Below are positions 49-25,150 of a stretch of DNA of 25,429 bases, piece after piece. The position numbers and the translations under genes were made by a program. The notes beneath the pieces are model-generated. The model ran no database searches. It was not told the origin of the DNA and saw only the letters and a program-made list of their open reading frames with translations. How positions within the stretch are numbered: the stretch's first letter is position 1; each line of letters begins with the position of its first letter. The stretch covers positions 1-25,429 of the IMG/VR virus record IMGVR_UViG_3300048924_000032; one strand, 5' to 3'. Source of the DNA: a virus.

Positions 49-76
49 TTTACAAAGTGGCGATATTTGTTTAATC
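49..76 (+). promoter_or_regulatory. weak candidate late promoter
   Basis: TTTACA at 49-54 and TTTAAT (70-75) or TTAATC (71-76) resemble sigma70 -35 and -10 boxes, but the spacing is only 15-16 nt. A start near 82 would place the terminator at 111-139 immediately downstream, the arrangement expected of a Q-dependent late promoter. The stretch could equally be the end of an upstream gene, since frame 3 is open from 3 to a TAA at 72-74. Confidence 0.25.
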
Positions 77-110
77 TGAAACCAATGATGGAGTAGTGCA
101 GTCATTCGAT

Positions 111-139
111 AGCCCTGAGTTAATAGCTCGGGGCTTTTT
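111..139 (+). terminator. intrinsic terminator upstream of the late leader
   Basis: AGCCCTGAG (111-119) pairs with CTCGGGGCT (127-135) through nine pairs including one wobble. The loop is seven bases and a T-run ends at 139. It lies upstream of the lysis and structural genes. It could be a tR'-like terminator overridden by an antiterminator, or simply the end of the gene to the left. Confidence 0.8.
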
Positions 140-146
140 GCATTTG

Positions 147-509
147 CACAACAGGTAAGAGCATTGAGAACCGCCGAGACTGCCACGAAAGTCGTAAGTC
201 CGTGCAAACGTCATGCAGTGCTCTTTCCGTTGTGGTGAATGCGCAGGCTGATGCGCTAGAGACGGCACCCCCTTAATGAGGACTGCGCTATCTCTGGAGA
301 AAAGTCTTGGGGCACACGATGCCAGAGAAAGCTGGAGTTCAGCGCCAGCCATCACACACCTAACCTGCTACCTCAGGCAATCGGTCGAAAGACGCCGGAT
401 AAACGTAACCGGCCTTAATCGCACGACCTTTCTGAAAGCGTCCTATCACCAATCACCAGAACACATCCAGATACCCTTGCACATTCGTGGCGACGGGGTA
501 GGACGTTTT
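147..509 (+). ncRNA. candidate structured late-leader RNA
   Basis: This stretch holds no convincing gene but is dense in nested inverted repeats. A long helix joins 147-152 plus 157-166 to 216-225 plus 229-234. Further helices are 241-245/252-256, 291-297/322-328, 331-335/345-349, 364-367/374-377, 384-386/391-393 capped by a GAAA tetraloop, and 394-398/409-413. A 13-pair helix of 435-447 with 497-509 encloses 49 nt and ends in TTTT. The order suggests one multidomain RNA in the untranslated leader of the late transcript. I do not recognise an RNA family, and strand and ends are inferred. Confidence 0.38.
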
Positions 510-518
510 ACATAAATG

Positions 519-541
519 AAAAACCCAGCACTATGGCTGGG
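519..541 (-). terminator. hairpin with T-run on the minus strand
   Basis: CCCAGC (524-529) and GCTGGG (536-541) form a six-pair hairpin with a six-base loop. Read on the minus strand it is followed by five Ts (complement of 519-523). It would stop antisense transcription entering the leader. On the plus strand it is followed only by CTT. Confidence 0.4.
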
Positions 542-558
542 CTTCGTGAAGATGGGTG

Positions 559-586
559 GCAAGAGACTGCTCGAACAGCCTCTTGC
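559..586 (+). repeat. strong hairpin in the leader before the holin
   Basis: GCAAGAG (559-565) pairs with CTCTTGC (580-586), then a single A/C mismatch, then CTG with CAG, closing a six-base loop. It is not followed by a U-run, so it is more likely an RNA structural element than a terminator. A 9-nt direct repeat, ACCACGTTA, lies further on at 618-626 and 661-669. Nothing else recognisable lies between here and the holin start. Confidence 0.4.
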
Positions 587-708
587 CTGATTTGCTCATG
601 CCTTTAGTCACGAACAAACCACGTTACCGCAAAATGTATCCTGGATTTGTTCACTCAACAACCACGTTAAATCCTATTTTGAACAGATCCCCGCATCAGG
701 GGGTGGAA

Positions 709-1035
709 ATGCACAAGATGCCATATAAAAGCGATCCGAACCTCTGGTCGATCCTCATCGCTTTCGGCATGACCCTAGTCGGCGCAATAGCCAGTTACTC
801 CTTCAAAGTCCTCAACGGTGAAGCGTTCAGTTGGAGGACTATGTGCCTACAGCTCATCGTGTCGATATTTGCGGGCCTCCTCATGATTATGATCGCTATT
901 CACTATGGCTGGCCTCAAGAGGTCACCGGAGGTGTGTGCGGCATGGCGGGGTGGTCAGGTTCTTCCCTAATTAAAGCCCTTGAAGGTAGATTCCTGAACA
1001 AGGCGTCTGGAGTTGTCGATGAAGATAAGCAGTAA
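709..1035 (+). CDS. holin (LydA-like phage holin)
   Basis: A 108-residue membrane protein starting the lysis cassette. After a short polar N-terminus with the M-P-x-K-x-D pattern common in this group there are three hydrophobic stretches, at about residues 13-35, 44-66 and 70-90, and a charged C-terminal tail. Such holins accumulate in the inner membrane and open it at a set time so that endolysin reaches the murein. ATG 709 follows a GGGGTGG Shine-Dalgarno-like run. GTG 703 and ATG 718 are alternatives. The open frame extends back to 556, but that part is not protein-like and lies in the structured leader. The endolysin gene overlaps its end. Confidence 0.85.
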   Translation: MHKMPYKSDPNLWSILIAFGMTLVGAIASYSFKVLNGEAFSWRTMCLQLIVSIFAGLLMIMIAIHYGWPQEVTGGVCGMAGWSGSSLIKALEGRFLNKASGVVDEDKQ

Positions 1036-2132: not shown

Positions 2133-2636
2133 ATGTCGCTTTATCCATTTGGTAGTGTGCCGGGGCCTCAAGGCGTACCAGGTCCGGCGTCATCAACAAG
2201 GCAGAAATCAGAATGCTACTTTTCAGGACTCAGCCTGGTAATCCCAACAACACCAACCAATCTGATTAACCTGATTAAAGCTCTCTCGCATACAGGCAAC
2301 CTGTCTCCGTTCTTCAACACGACAACAAACAAGTTCAACGTCTTCAACGTGAATGCCACCTGTACGTTCAAGGTGAACGTTATTGGCGCATGGAGCGGAT
2401 CCTCTACCAACCGCAGCATGACCATCGACTTCCCACAGACGAACGGCAACACGCTGAGTAAAACGCGTGATGCTCAGGTAACGGTGGATGCGTTGTCATT
2501 CCCGACATTCTTTAGCGTAGACAAAGACGGCAACCTGGCGACTAACGGCAGTGACATCACAATCGTATCGAACGGCGCGACATTCACTGCCACAGCGATT
2601 CTTCTCGTAGCTGAACAGATGGTTCCTAACCCTTAA
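2133..2636 (+). CDS. putative capsid decoration or fibre protein with collagen-like N-terminus
   Basis: I do not recognise a family. The 167-residue product has a short collagen-like segment near the N-terminus (GSVPGPQGVPGPASS, residues 7-21) followed by about 140 residues rich in Thr, Ser, Asn and beta-branched residues, suggesting a beta-sandwich that trimerises. There is no signal peptide. AAGGAG at 2121-2126 sits six bases before ATG. It leads a run of four small, closely spaced genes between lysis and terminase. A capsid-surface or fibre role is inferred from composition and from the head-fibre-like gene two positions on. Confidence 0.55.
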   Translation: MSLYPFGSVPGPQGVPGPASSTRQKSECYFSGLSLVIPTTPTNLINLIKALSHTGNLSPFFNTTTNKFNVFNVNATCTFKVNVIGAWSGSSTNRSMTIDFPQTNGNTLSKTRDAQVTVDALSFPTFFSVDKDGNLATNGSDITIVSNGATFTATAILLVAEQMVPNP

Positions 2637-2644
2637 GGTAAAAC

Positions 2645-2893
2645 ATGCAATTACTAAACGTACCCGCACCTAAAGGCGTGTGGACTCAGGTCTATGATGG
2701 GACCGCAGAAGCAACTATCTCTATTTCCGGTACTGAGGCTTATATCTGCCAGTCAACATCTGCACCGGGAAATCTGATTGGCCTCCCATTCAGCGGATCT
2801 TCTTTGACTCAGTACATTTATCACGCCTCTTCTGGCACCCCTGTATACGTCAAGCCACTTAACGCTGACGCAATCATTATCGTTAACGCATAG
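2645..2893 (+). CDS. small beta-rich virion-associated protein, unknown
   Basis: An 82-residue protein of no family I can name. It is rich in Thr, Ser, Val, Ile and Gly, with short alternating hydrophobic segments (for example EATISISGTEAYIC and TPVYVKPLNADAIIIVNA), consistent with a small beta-barrel. It begins 9 bases after the preceding stop and ends 9 bases before the next start, in a tight plus-strand cluster. Composition resembles phage surface proteins such as decoration domains. A structural role is an inference from neighbours only. Confidence 0.55.
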   Translation: MQLLNVPAPKGVWTQVYDGTAEATISISGTEAYICQSTSAPGNLIGLPFSGSSLTQYIYHASSGTPVYVKPLNADAIIIVNA

Positions 2894-2901
2894 GTGAAAT
2901 C

Positions 2902-3105
2902 ATGCCAGCAATCGTAGTCGCTCAGTCGGGCGAAGCAGTAAGCGTAGCAAAAGCATCAGAAACCCCAGTGGCAGCAACTACCTCCACTGCAGGAACAGTT
3001 AAGCAGATGACATTCACTGCTCAGTTAACAGCAGCGCCTACTCAGGCCGATTTCAACTCACTGCTGACCAAGCTGATCGCCGCAGGTCACATGGCATCAA
3101 GCTGA
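2902..3105 (+). CDS. head fibre-like protein
   Basis: A 67-residue protein whose centre and C-terminus resemble the head-fibre family (Pfam Phage_head_fibre): an Ala/Thr-rich N-terminal half, the segment STAGTVKQ, and a C-terminal helix TQADFNSLLTKLIAAGHMA that in such proteins supports trimerisation. It would decorate the capsid. It is much shorter than phi29-type head fibres and may keep only the trimer-forming end, perhaps acting with the proteins encoded by the two genes before it. The start follows GGTGAAATC. Confidence 0.6.
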   Translation: MPAIVVAQSGEAVSVAKASETPVAATTSTAGTVKQMTFTAQLTAAPTQADFNSLLTKLIAAGHMASS

Positions 3106-3113
3106 GGTGAGAA

Positions 3114-13787: not shown

Positions 13788-13810
13788 AAAGAGGACGGTT
13801 AAGCCGCCCT
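13786..13810 (-). terminator. intrinsic terminator of the HNH gene, overlapping its stop codon
   Basis: On the minus strand AGGGCGG (complement of 13804-13810) pairs with CCGTCCT (complement of 13792-13798) with one mismatch. The loop contains the HNH stop codon and five Ts follow (complement of 13786-13790). It ends the endonuclease transcript before it runs antisense into the sheath gene. Confidence 0.6.
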
Positions 13811-14287
13811 GCCGTGATTTACATGAAACCCTGAAGATATTTCGGCTATGATTCGTGCTTCACAAGCTTTAATGAAGTCTGAGTACCAGCCCAAGTGTTT
13901 GCGCTTACGATTAATGTTTATATATGCCTGCCATAGGTTGTGACGACGACTCCAGCACACCCCTGTGATTCCGGTTTTGCTGTCGCTCCTTACCGGCATA
14001 TTCATGGCGTTTCCTTCTCTGCTAACCAACCGAAGGTTTTCTATTCTGTTGTTTGTGAAGTTTCCGTCTATATGATCAATAAACATTCCGCTGGGTATTG
14101 TCCCTTTATGCATCTCCCAGATAATCCTATGCGTGCGATATGATACTTTGTCAATCATAACTCTTGAGTATCCGTGGTCATTGATACTTTTAACTAGAGT
14201 TCCTTCTTTGATACATCCCCGGCTTACTTTCCAATAAAGTTGCCCGGTGGATTGGCAGTATGTGAATAAAGAATTGTAATCAATCAT
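13799..14287 (-). CDS. HNH homing endonuclease with AP2 DNA-binding domain
   Basis: A 162-residue free-standing endonuclease. Residues about 50-95 carry the HNH_3 pattern: THRIIWEMHKG, the metal-site core FIDHIDGNFTNNRIENLRLV, then SREGN. Residues about 105-150 form an AP2 domain with TGITGVCWSRRHNLWQAYI and KHLGWYSDFIKACEAR. Such enzymes cut phage DNA lacking the gene and spread by repair. It lies in antisense between sheath and tube, opposite every structural gene. GAGG lies about ten bases upstream of ATG. The sequence looks more AT-rich than the flanking genes, consistent with recent entry. Confidence 0.93.
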   Translation of the reverse strand: MIDYNSLFTYCQSTGQLYWKVSRGCIKEGTLVKSINDHGYSRVMIDKVSYRTHRIIWEMHKGTIPSGMFIDHIDGNFTNNRIENLRLVSREGNAMNMPVRSDSKTGITGVCWSRRHNLWQAYININRKRKHLGWYSDFIKACEARIIAEISSGFHVNHGRAA

Positions 14288-23854: not shown

Positions 23855-24559
23855 TTACTTAAAATATTTGTAATATAAAGAGTATGGAAAGGACGCCATA
23901 GCTCTGTTGAGTTCATTTTTCCATAAGGCATAGGCTTGTCCATTAAGGTGGGTTGAGTCTGGGAGCGAGTATTCAGGCTTGATCCCATTCTCACCTATGA
24001 CACCAGCCGGGAGTGGAACTACTACGCAATTTTTGAACTTCGCGCAGGTTAACTTTATCTTATAATCTGCAAGCGGAGCGTCTTTTGCGATGTGAGTTAT
24101 CTTATCCCTGTTCGGCACGAAGACCTGTGAGACATACAACTTTCGCGCCCTGGGGGCTGCATACTCAATCATCTCGACTATCTCATCGCCCACTTGAGAT
24201 CCGATTTCACCCATCAATAAATTATTGGTGCCAGCCTCAATGAAAACGGCCCGATACCTACCTAAATCCTCGCTTTTAACCCTGGCTTTAATACCATGAA
24301 CAGTATCACCGCCAATGCCTGCGTTGACGTGGGCAAAATGCAACCCATTTTGATTAAGCCCCTGGGTTATTGAGTCTCCAAACATGATGATCGTCTTGCT
24401 GGCTTCTTCATTATCAATCTGAGAAATCCGCATATGAATCAACTTATTAGTGACACCATAAAAACTACCTTCTGACTCATCACCCTTGAAATCAGTGTAC
24501 ATATCTGCGTGTGCAGAAAAGCTAAGAGCAATGGCTGATGCAATAAATTTATTTAACAT
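23855..24559 (-). CDS. secreted SGNH/GDSL hydrolase
   Basis: A 234-residue enzyme with a signal peptide (residues 1-18, cleavage after AHA) and all SGNH blocks: GDSIT with nucleophile Ser63, Gly81 in NAGIGGD, GTNN with Asn112 or Asn113 for the oxyanion hole, and DSTH with Asp201 and His204. It is probably a periplasmic or cell-surface esterase removing acyl groups from a glycan or lipid. It lies on the minus strand, convergent with the late operon, with TGGAGG just before ATG, so it can be expressed without the lytic cycle. Changing the host surface during lysogeny is inferred, not shown. Confidence 0.87.
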   Translation of the reverse strand: MLNKFIASAIALSFSAHADMYTDFKGDESEGSFYGVTNKLIHMRISQIDNEEASKTIIMFGDSITQGLNQNGLHFAHVNAGIGGDTVHGIKARVKSEDLGRYRAVFIEAGTNNLLMGEIGSQVGDEIVEMIEYAAPRARKLYVSQVFVPNRDKITHIAKDAPLADYKIKLTCAKFKNCVVVPLPAGVIGENGIKPEYSLPDSTHLNGQAYALWKNELNRAMASFPYSLYYKYFK

Positions 24560-24763: not shown

Positions 24764-25150
24764 ATGGGATTCCCGAGTCCAGCACAGGATTTTGTTGAAC
24801 AACGCATATCACTAGACCAGCGCATCATAAGCAGGCCAGCTGCTACGTACTTCATGCGTGCTGGTGCGACACACTATCGAGAGGGAATACTGAATGGTGC
24901 TTTACTTGTCGTGGACGCATCCCTGAGTCCGTGTGACGGTTCATTGCTGGTTTGCAGAATGGAAGGTGAGCTTAGGATTAAGCGGTATCGCAAATCACCC
25001 AAGCCTCACCTGGAGGATTTGCAGACAGGAAGGCGTGAAGAGATACCGGTTCACGATGACGGCACGAGCCCGGATGCGATATTTGGAGTGATCACCTACA
25101 TCATCAACGATGCGCGTTCTGGTGAGTTTGATGATTGTCCGGTGATGTGA
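24764..25150 (+). CDS. UmuD'-like protein (phage HumD type)
   Basis: A 128-residue homologue of UmuD that begins at MGFPSPAQDFVEQRI, aligning with residues 24 onward of E. coli UmuD, exactly at its Cys24-Gly25 self-cleavage point. It is thus born as the active UmuD' form, as in phage P1 HumD. The catalytic Ser60 position (SGDSM in UmuD) reads GATHY here, so Ser is lost, while a lysine at the Lys97 position (Lys73) remains in RIKRYRK. It would partner host UmuC (Pol V) in translesion synthesis; no umuC lies in the window. A LexA box controls it. Confidence 0.9.
   Translation: MGFPSPAQDFVEQRISLDQRIISRPAATYFMRAGATHYREGILNGALLVVDASLSPCDGSLLVCRMEGELRIKRYRKSPKPHLEDLQTGRREEIPVHDDGTSPDAIFGVITYIINDARSGEFDDCPVM

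Follow-up and report, generated by a model that had tools for sequence, protein, structure and literature searches.

A tRNA-elbow-like RNA clamp with kissing loops and exchangeable inserts in a phage late leader

Introduction

Lambdoid phages produce short late RNAs, such as the lambda 6S RNA and StxS, which end at the late terminator tR′. The bacterial Y RNA YrlA (RF02553) contains an inserted domain that we take, also from our own reading of the structure by eye, to be a permuted tRNA mimic. According to its Rfam consensus, STnc100 (RF02076) is built from a stem ending in GGUG, an AAU linker, a hairpin, a long variable middle and a second hairpin that is directly followed by CACC. A passage of PMC5331693 reports the STnc100_4 transcript on Northern blots in EHEC, a passage of PMC8550237 describes PasD as Hfq-dependent with many RNA partners by RIL-seq, and in a passage of PMC13192938 a structural kinship of STnc100 and PasD was proposed in 2026. 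GOLLD and ROOL are phage-borne RNAs with kissing loops that often lie near tRNA islands, and the GOLLD linker sometimes contains tRNAs, as stated in a passage of PMC12286853.

Here we analyze a stretch in the late leader of a virus (positions 147–509) that had been predicted from its letters to form one large structured RNA. The window is the whole of this virus record (IMG/VR record IMGVR_UViG_3300048924_000032), comprising 25,429 bases, in which a late leader is followed by holin, spanin-like, terminase, portal, capsid-like, transglycosylase-bearing (tape-measure-like) and baseplate genes. Apart from these, an HNH_3 endonuclease gene (13799–14287, minus strand, E 1.5e-21), probably a free-standing homing endonuclease, lies on the strand opposite to the late genes, a GDSL-type lipase/acylhydrolase gene (23855–24559, minus strand) is found close to the tail genes, and a Peptidase_S24 (UmuD-like) protein is encoded at the right end (24764–25150).

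Results

The late leader carries a row of separate RNA modules

The late leader contains the following features:

49–77, plus strand: candidate late promoter PR′, recognized by eye (TTTACA 49–54, 17-nt spacer, TAATCT 72–77)
111–135, plus strand: late terminator tR′, an 11-pair stem followed by TTTT, from the terminator scan and the alignment with the annotated P22 't late'
147–234, plus strand: module 1, a long bulged hairpin with the stem 147–166/216–234 and a variable interior (z −4.62)
231–356, plus strand: module 2, a tRNA-elbow-like clamp (model R1, 62.1 bits, E 1.2e-14; this score is by construction, the window being part of the seed alignment)
384–413, plus strand: module 3, a GAAA-capped 3-bp stem and a hairpin GCCGG..CCGGC, from motif recurrence in other loci
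435–509, plus strand: module 4, a late-leader hairpin common to P22 and other lambdoid phages (z −4.04; P22 homology 421–620)
523–543, plus strand: hairpin, terminator-like on the opposite strand, from the terminator scan and a shuffle test
558–587, plus strand: hairpin GGCAAGAG../..CUCUUGCC, from a shuffle test
718–1035, plus strand: holin gene, the first lysis gene 3′ of the RNA region (Pfam Phage_holin_3_3, E 4e-11)

The candidate PR′ gave no match in the consensus promoter scan and was placed by analogy to the annotated P22 late promoter, which lies upstream of the matching terminator. On the plus strand, the terminator scan returned no terminator-like site between positions 137 and 1100.

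All helices named in the original prediction are present in 147–509, and the pairing claimed to exceed chance does so, only that the excess is moderate for the stretch as a whole (z −2.51 for 140–520, reached by 1 of 100 shuffles; z −3.91 for 80–720, by 0 of 20). The long outer helix 147–166/216–234 is the dominant stem of 147–234, for which none of 200 shuffles was as stable, and the same holds for the 13-pair helix 435–447/497–509 (0/200), which is moreover compensated in P22, in E. coli ET151 and in locus L009. The additional hairpin further downstream also exceeds its shuffles (z −3.19, 2/200 as stable, tested as 554–590). The GAAA-capped stem (384–393) exists and resembles hairpins found elsewhere, but with 3 bp it is weak on its own; even tested together with the adjoining hairpin (384–412), it reached a z of −1.68 with 15 of 200 shuffles. 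The strongest set of helices had been missed: 231–237/350–356, 241–244/253–256 and 331–335/345–349 with a kissing contact 247–251/339–343, which together make up module 2.

The region had been described as being without a credible gene and without a match to a known RNA class, and both statements hold. The open reading frame 276–515 belongs to no Pfam family and is shifted by gains and losses of single nucleotides among homologues of the insert described below, so that a protein product was rejected and the homologues gave no indication of a coding region. No Rfam 15 family matched the window at the gathering threshold, and a search of positions 1–720 up to E 10 returned weak chance matches only. 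Neither by eye nor by Rfam did we find a hammerhead or other ribozyme. The class defined below is absent from Rfam 15 and is not described in the literature searched, which for the sequence search comprised main texts and included few subscription papers.

The prediction of one large RNA had to be given up in favor of a row of modules that occur in other combinations and orders in other phages. In a BLAST search against phages, different parts of the stretch had different relatives: P22 matches the window only at 421–620, where module 4 stands at the same late-leader place, and shows no match to modules 1–3, while a block of approximately 210–263 recurs in otherwise unlike phages, including P1, Magnus (Ackermannviridae), Escherichia HC6, 24-32N, mEp460 and Cronobacter ES2. 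In 147–509, separate RNA modules follow one another in tandem, with tR′ on their 5′ side and the holin gene on their 3′ side.

Module 1 directly precedes the clamp. A module-1-like upstream stem was present in 93 of 98 unique homologous flanks, namely those of clamp copies with a GUUGUGGUG-like outer stem, compared to 24 of 98 when the upstream letters were shuffled once, and it carries many compensatory changes. Copies with other outer stems, a set that overlaps slightly with these 98, show a smaller excess (93 of 184 versus 33 shuffled). Both modules have GUUG in common, which closes module 1 and is at the same time the 5′ end of the outer-stem region of the clamp (229–234 with 147–152 and with 350–358). 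Modules 1 and 2 may thus compete for the shared GUUG, and it is possible that it serves as a switch or processing signal.

The hairpin of module 3 (GCCGG..GUAACCGGC) was found at 25 unique places, 18 of which have a module-2 element on the same strand no more than 700 nt away, in loci that had been fetched for having module 2. Hairpins of this type, often behind a GAAA- or GGAA-capped stem, stand in RNA arrays of phages (L126, L127, L399, L027, L358 and others) and may represent a separate RNA type. Module 3 contains GATAAAC, which presumably resembles the end of a CRISPR repeat; an RNA-based anti-CRISPR was rejected, most other copies of the module being without GATAAAC.

The central module folds as an RNA clamp

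Positions 231–356 of the window fit every part of a clamp with kissing loops. In its scaffold, a 7-bp stem leads via AAU into a 4-bp hairpin, and the variable insert that follows is succeeded by a 5-bp hairpin abutting the 7-bp stem:

231–237, plus strand: 5′ strand of the outer 7-bp stem, pairing with 350–356; covariation
241–256, plus strand: hairpin A (D-arm-like), GCGC-AGGCTGAT-GCGC; compensatory changes at two pairs
247–251, plus strand: kissing strand GCUGA, pairing with UCAGC at 339–343
257–330, plus strand: variable insert of the window copy, from the insert-cluster comparison
291–328, plus strand: helix 291–297/322–328 inside the insert, compensated in L463 (by eye)
331–349, plus strand: hairpin B (T-arm-like), GCTGG-AGTTCAGCG-CCAGC; compensatory changes at four pairs in alignment A1 and at three in A6
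350–356, plus strand: 3′ strand of the outer 7-bp stem, directly abutting hairpin B; covariation

A pattern scan of IMG/VR with the 210–263 block returned at least 120 stretches, and further scans, from which the matches listed were used, left the outer stem and one or the other hairpin free to vary. A side-by-side comparison of these stretches shows that their 5′ and 3′ parts are constant and complementary to each other, with a variable middle between them. This anatomy was cast into a descriptor: a 7-nt stem with at least six pairs, a 3-nt linker, a 4-bp stem whose 8-nt loop contains GCUGA, the insert, and a 5-bp stem with CAG in its loop. Of 424 loci, 326 contain matches to it, 332 copies in total, and no match arose when these loci were read backwards; since the loci had been fetched by pattern, 332 is not an estimate of frequency.

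We then examined pairing in positions that had not been selected for it. Across 205 unique flank pairs with an unselected outer stem, pairs 1–7 are formed in 89–96% of the cases, and this value falls to 60, 43 and 24% at pairs 8, 9 and 10. The pairing falls beyond pair 7, and the outer stem is therefore seven pairs long, like the acceptor stem of tRNA. Sliding the register by 1–3 positions lowers the pairing at most positions; owing to a G-rich and a C-rich side, single ones retain up to 92%, and the true register is set apart by the number of its pair types. Hairpin A was paired in 63 of 68 cells (17 unique forms) where pairing had not been selected. Hairpin B, evaluated at a fixed loop length, was paired in 346 of 485 cells, a low value that results from the variable length of its loop, for which the later alignments allow. 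The window's own hairpin B is a compensated form, having GCUGG/CCAGC in place of GCCGG/CCGGC.

In a MAFFT alignment of 45 natural copies, 98.5% of the cells are paired, a percentage that is partly by construction as the rows come from the descriptor list and were partly selected for pairing, and 12 of 21 pairs are changed on both sides. The covariation score of this alignment amounts to 0.337 as compared to 0.101 in shuffled alignments, none of 500 of which reached the observed value. RNAalifold on its own arrived at the same stems plus one more pair in hairpin A. Since a structure at the DNA level would not favor G-U on one strand, we counted G-U and A-C in the outer-stem cells of 238 elements on the given strand and obtained 40 G-U versus 15 A-C (37 versus 6 in pairs 1–6), with a slight bias towards G-U because the filter treats it as a pair. 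The excess of G-U indicates an RNA fold.

Covariation supports the kissing contact of the two hairpin loops

In our first alignment, the contact between GCUGA of hairpin A and UCAGC of hairpin B was almost invariant because the search had fixed its letters. The Klebsiella phage 1611E-K2-1, which carries a homologue of the window insert, has GUCGA and UCGAC instead. We thus searched IMG/VR for first loops that differ at their two changeable positions, which returned 46 and 13 stretches and, together with L460, 60 altered first loops. To locate the second hairpin, we relied on its stem and on the outer stem, favoring loops of 9 nt and GG at the end, and did not use the letters of its loop. A partner was found for 39 of the 60; 25 of these are unique and 21 well formed.

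In 19 of the 21 well-formed cases, the second loop pairs with the first in all five positions. For 17 of the 19 this is achieved by Watson-Crick pairs alone (12 GUCGA/UCGAC, 3 GCCGA/UCGGC and 2 GUUGA/UCAAC), for two via G-U; the loops of L511 and L522 pair at four of five positions. The mean loop pairing score is 4.86 with the own partner, 4.02 with partners swapped between variants and 4.19 against the common UCAGC, a contrast that rests on one or two positions per case, which are the predicted ones. No such partner was found for 21 first loops. Eight of these (AGGAGGAU) have no apparent relation to the class, that of L485 runs off the contig, and L503 is without an insert. Upon re-examination, L500 has a compensated loop contact with a hairpin paired at four of five positions. 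L484 and L518 are clamp-like with an altered first loop and have no matching second loop within 300 nt, and no clear partner was found for the remaining eight.

When the variants were aligned with other copies (alignment A6), two of the kissing pairs had both partners changed, one in 14 and the other in 15 of 32 rows. Many of these rows share ancestry and are not independent events; three different compensated states are present among them. For the A6 structure as a whole, none of 500 shuffles reached the observed covariation. The clamp, including its kissing loops, is an RNA fold of the given strand, and we consider the existence and fold of this RNA class practically certain. The suggestion of the original prediction that a structured phage RNA occupies the cargo position between Q and the lysis genes is supported; this RNA is conserved and shows strong covariation.

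The inserts are hypervariable and exchangeable

The inserts of the 332 copies fall into 202 clusters, 158 of them singletons. In 24 of the 44 clusters with several members, the same insert is embedded between flanks with no relation to one another on either side; conversely, five pairs of copies have like flanks and different inserts. The window insert recurs in eight other loci of the 326, and is found in six phage records (five phages, including the Jedunavirus 1611E-K2-1), one E. coli genome and two Klebsiella plasmids.

Inside the window insert, the predicted helix 291–297/322–328 (UCUCUGG/CCAGAGA) is present as an alternative to the minimum-energy fold. A distant homologue of the insert on a Pseudomonas plasmid (L463) has UCGCUGA/UCAGCGG at the same place and is thus compensated, as judged by eye in this single homologue; the clamp around it looks degenerate. 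Taken over 221 inserts, stability exceeds that of the shuffles only slightly (mean z −0.49), and we rejected the idea that they are strongly folded. An antisense origin of the window insert was likewise rejected: searches with it matched 9 phage records and 1 of 5426 E. coli genomes, and the only matches outside the class were three weak ones at E 7. Since the insert has no good match outside the class, no target is indicated. T-arm-like motifs occur in 8 of the 202 insert clusters versus 0.6 in shuffles. As separate observations, a predicted tRNA-Pro in L275 (581–666) and Rfam tRNA matches in L191 (7101–7176) and L196 (3978–4026) fall inside the clamp inserts, the cassette being a tRNA or a remnant of one.

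Copies of the clamp occur in several kinds of genomic places

A pattern scan of bacterial species genomes returned at least 119 stretches. The matches listed belong, as we take it, to Beta- and Gammaproteobacteria with the exception of one Martelella, one Phycisphaerales and one Verrucomicrobia MAG, and two MAGs are assigned only to 'Proteobacteria'. Of 5426 complete E. coli genomes, 1001 carry the element or at least part of it. A survey with R1, which is a weak one, identified 5 of 185 genomes at E 0.001; among its weaker loci, L454 has the hairpin A motif, and L456 and L457 look unrelated.

Both a Q gene and a lysis gene were recognized around 36 of the 332 copies, and one or the other for 63; 269 have neither, as judged by tblastn with enterobacterial queries, by which diverged genes will be missed. 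CI-like repressors account for 6 of 60 upstream proteins. In L392, a BstA-like abortive-infection gene (2347–3111) is the nearest larger gene upstream of the clamp.

A tRNA gene lies within 200 bp on the same strand for 26 of the 332 copies, compared to a mean of 4.7 and a maximum of 10 in 200 random draws; 41 copies have a tRNA within 1 kb, 38 of them (38/332) one on the same strand. The gene order in MK448230 is Q, four tRNAs, the element and holin. In P1, tRNA-Asn and tRNA-Thr are followed by a row consisting of two clamps, upstream stems, a hairpin of type III and an STnc100-like clamp. Some 0.9 kb of tandem structured RNA modules thereby occupy the space between these tRNA genes and tciA (L126, 2435–3330), partly overlaid by one annotated hypothetical ORF of 58 codons. 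The row in Magnus is longer than that of P1 and includes an Rfam match to STnc100; more than 2 kb upstream of tRNA-Met (L127, 2380–4600) bear annotations of small hypothetical ORFs only and have the appearance of many RNA hairpin modules in succession.

The clamp of L040 is immediately preceded by a sigma-70-like site (10 of 12 matches), the scan of this locus returned no terminator-like site, and copies with the same insert have similar upstream letters. A conserved trailer (ATCACG..TTAGGACCGTG.. with TGTGTAG approximately 40 nt on) is located just 3′ of the clamp in L050, L053, L056, L070, L104, L112 and L116 and is probably a further RNA module. The occurrence of the central module next to repressor genes, within the tRNA regions of P1 and Magnus and behind the promoter-like site of L040 renders unlikely the role in antitermination that the original prediction had considered.

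Discussion

The reading that we favor, with the chances for and against it about evenly balanced, is that of a phage RNA made late and acting in trans, with a scaffold that presents an exchangeable effector insert. The module array 147–509 would be transcribed only late, once Q lets RNA polymerase pass tR′; this follows from the position of the modules 3′ of tR′, which, going by the biology of P22 and lambda, should be made only when Q-type antitermination works. The segment 231–356 is one copy of a mobile phage RNA class and would be released as a discrete or processed RNA; its scaffold folds like a tRNA elbow (the 5-bp hairpin stacked on the 7-bp stem, the loops kissing) and carries the insert in place of the anticodon arm. 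Such a scaffold would protect and present the insert, which in turn may act in trans on a target of the host, the phage or a competitor, either by base pairing or as a decoy. An arms race would change the inserts and leave the scaffold as it is. A scaffold that stays constant around an insert that keeps changing, in phages with little else in common, is to be expected of an effector under such selection. It also speaks in favor of this reading that the relatives by anatomy, STnc100 and PasD, are real transcripts. Against it count the low extra stability of the inserts, the lack of an indicated target and the absence of a terminator-like site from the scans both of the window 3′ of the module up to position 1100 and of L040.

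Several other explanations have to be weighed against this one. The elbow-like scaffold might itself be a decoy that binds tRNA-binding factors of the host or of an enemy, such as tRNA-cutting defense nucleases or toxins, modification enzymes or RNase P, as a sponge or false substrate. Stems of 7, 4 and 5 bp, a hairpin B that abuts the 7-bp stem and a contact between D- and T-like loops would fit such a mimic, as would the enrichment near tRNAs (26 of 332 copies within 200 bp on the same strand versus 4.7 expected from random draws) and the tRNA or tRNA pieces in some inserts (L275, L191, L196), and a passage of PMC7790460 suggests a role as competitive inhibitor for the tRNA-like part of YrlA. 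We nevertheless hold a decoy to be unlikely, as T-loop consensus, anticodon arm and CCA are missing, a recognized tRNA lies within 1 kb on the same strand for only 38 of 332 copies, and a scaffold that is purely a decoy leaves 202 types of insert unexplained. A cis-acting element of the late leader, with modules that assist the Q-modified polymerase or else stabilize the lysis mRNA, pace it or serve in its processing, appears quite unlikely. The location of the window module between tR′ and holin speaks for it; because no terminator-like site follows up to position 1100, the module may be only a part of the lysis mRNA. So do the 63 of 332 copies with a recognized upstream Q or downstream lysis gene and module 4, which is shared with P22 at this very place. 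The majority of copies, however, is found outside any recognized late operon, which makes a cis element less expected: 269 of 332 have neither neighbor (again with diverged genes missed by tblastn with enterobacterial queries), others lie beside repressors, in the tRNA regions of P1 and Magnus or behind the promoter-like site of L040, and P22 has module 4 yet no match to modules 1–3.

Exchange of inserts also raises the question whether the conserved arms are a DNA-level device, that is, recombination joints that move cassettes, the RNA fold being secondary. Integron attC sites and boundary sequences are examples of such joints, and the same insert in unrelated flanks as well as the five pairs with like flanks and different inserts would be in line with this. 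The predominance of G-U over A-C at paired positions of the given strand (40 to 15) and the covariation of the kissing loops, a contact for which a joint would have no need, point the other way, and no recombinase is among the commonest neighbor families listed (up to 25 per list). We therefore regard this explanation as very unlikely; a role in DNA-level recombination could exist in addition to the RNA fold. Lastly, the clamp shares with YrlA the 5′ GGYGAAUGC, an outer stem and a small hairpin followed by an inserted domain, and could be read as a diverged bacterial Y RNA without its Ro60 partner. That membership looked promising at first and was then rejected, the four loci with sub-threshold YrlA matches that we inspected being tandem tRNA genes. 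The YrlA model gives no match in the window at the gathering threshold, R1 gives none in the YrlA locus L431, and the YrlA 3′ ACUUGUCGCC is absent. No TROVE (Ro60) domain was identified by Pfam among the 19 larger window ORFs scanned, nor among the Pfam families listed for 120 neighbor proteins of other copies (all 22, and 25 of 31). A Y RNA of this kind is accordingly extremely unlikely.

Returning to the displayed effector, we tentatively put forward the wider possibility of an RNA display system common to phages of Beta- and Gammaproteobacteria: a clamp with about 200 types of unrelated cassettes, exchanged between phage families and sometimes arranged in arrays with further clamp types, including the STnc100/PasD kind, the cassettes being RNA weapons or shields. 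If this is true, cassettes would be aimed at hosts, defense systems or rival phages, and the arrays would correspond, at the RNA level, to the protein cargo islands of phages. What the analysis provides is an RNA class with a tertiary contact supported by covariation, mostly unannotated, in P1, an Ackermannviridae phage and lambdoid prophages. Should the insert be an effector, there would be a layer of exchangeable RNA cargo that is invisible to present gene annotation, with the scaffold as a handle for finding it. The presence of the element in P1, a laboratory phage, makes the question directly testable, and the clamp offers a natural tRNA-elbow mimic for structural work.

Compared to known RNAs, the clamp resembles tRNA in its 7-, 4- and 5-bp stems, in the T-like stem abutting the outer stem and in the contact between D- and T-like loops, and its insert sits where the anticodon arm would be. 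It differs from tRNA by a 3-nt linker, a 9-nt T-like loop without UUCRANN, kissing by five Watson-Crick pairs and the absence of an anticodon arm. ARAGORN identified no tRNA in the window, and NCCA occurs in 23 of 242 trailers, approximately as expected from composition. YrlA shares the features of its 5′ part and the likeness to tRNA, but has a permuted tRNA domain and the 3′ ACUUGUCGCC, both absent from the window clamp, where a second hairpin and kissing loops are found instead. GOLLD and ROOL, which are likewise borne by phages, differ in being large cage-forming RNAs, and their Rfam models matched neither the window nor 24 other loci scanned. The short late RNAs ending at tR′ belong to the same late leader, in which the window modules lie 3′ of tR′.

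The greatest likeness is to STnc100 and PasD. The arrangement of the STnc100 consensus, a GGUG/CACC stem enclosing AAU, a hairpin, a variable middle and an abutting hairpin, is also present in the window clamp; STnc100 and PasD are prophage-borne, and STnc100 lies in the same RNA-rich stretch of Klebsiella phage Magnus. The look-alike of STnc100 in P1 is not called by Rfam and reaches 17.2 bits (E 0.046) with R1. STnc100 differs in the sequences and loops of its hairpins, in having no GCUGA/UCAGC contact and in a terminator that is part of the family: the family-specific hairpins (C-rich first stem; CCGGGAGGNACCCGG) are absent from the window clamp, and a 3′ terminator hairpin of this type is absent from the plus strand of the window between 137 and 1100. 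The STnc100 model gave no match in the window at the gathering threshold, nor at E 10 for positions 1–720; R1 gave none up to E 5 on the STnc100 copies in L127, L439, L441, L442 and L449, the 13.1-bit R1 match in L442 being located away from its STnc100 copy. By score the window is thus not a member of STnc100, which by anatomy is its nearest relative. This kinship of the clamp with STnc100 and PasD, based on anatomy, offers a frame in which both prophage sRNAs may be understood.
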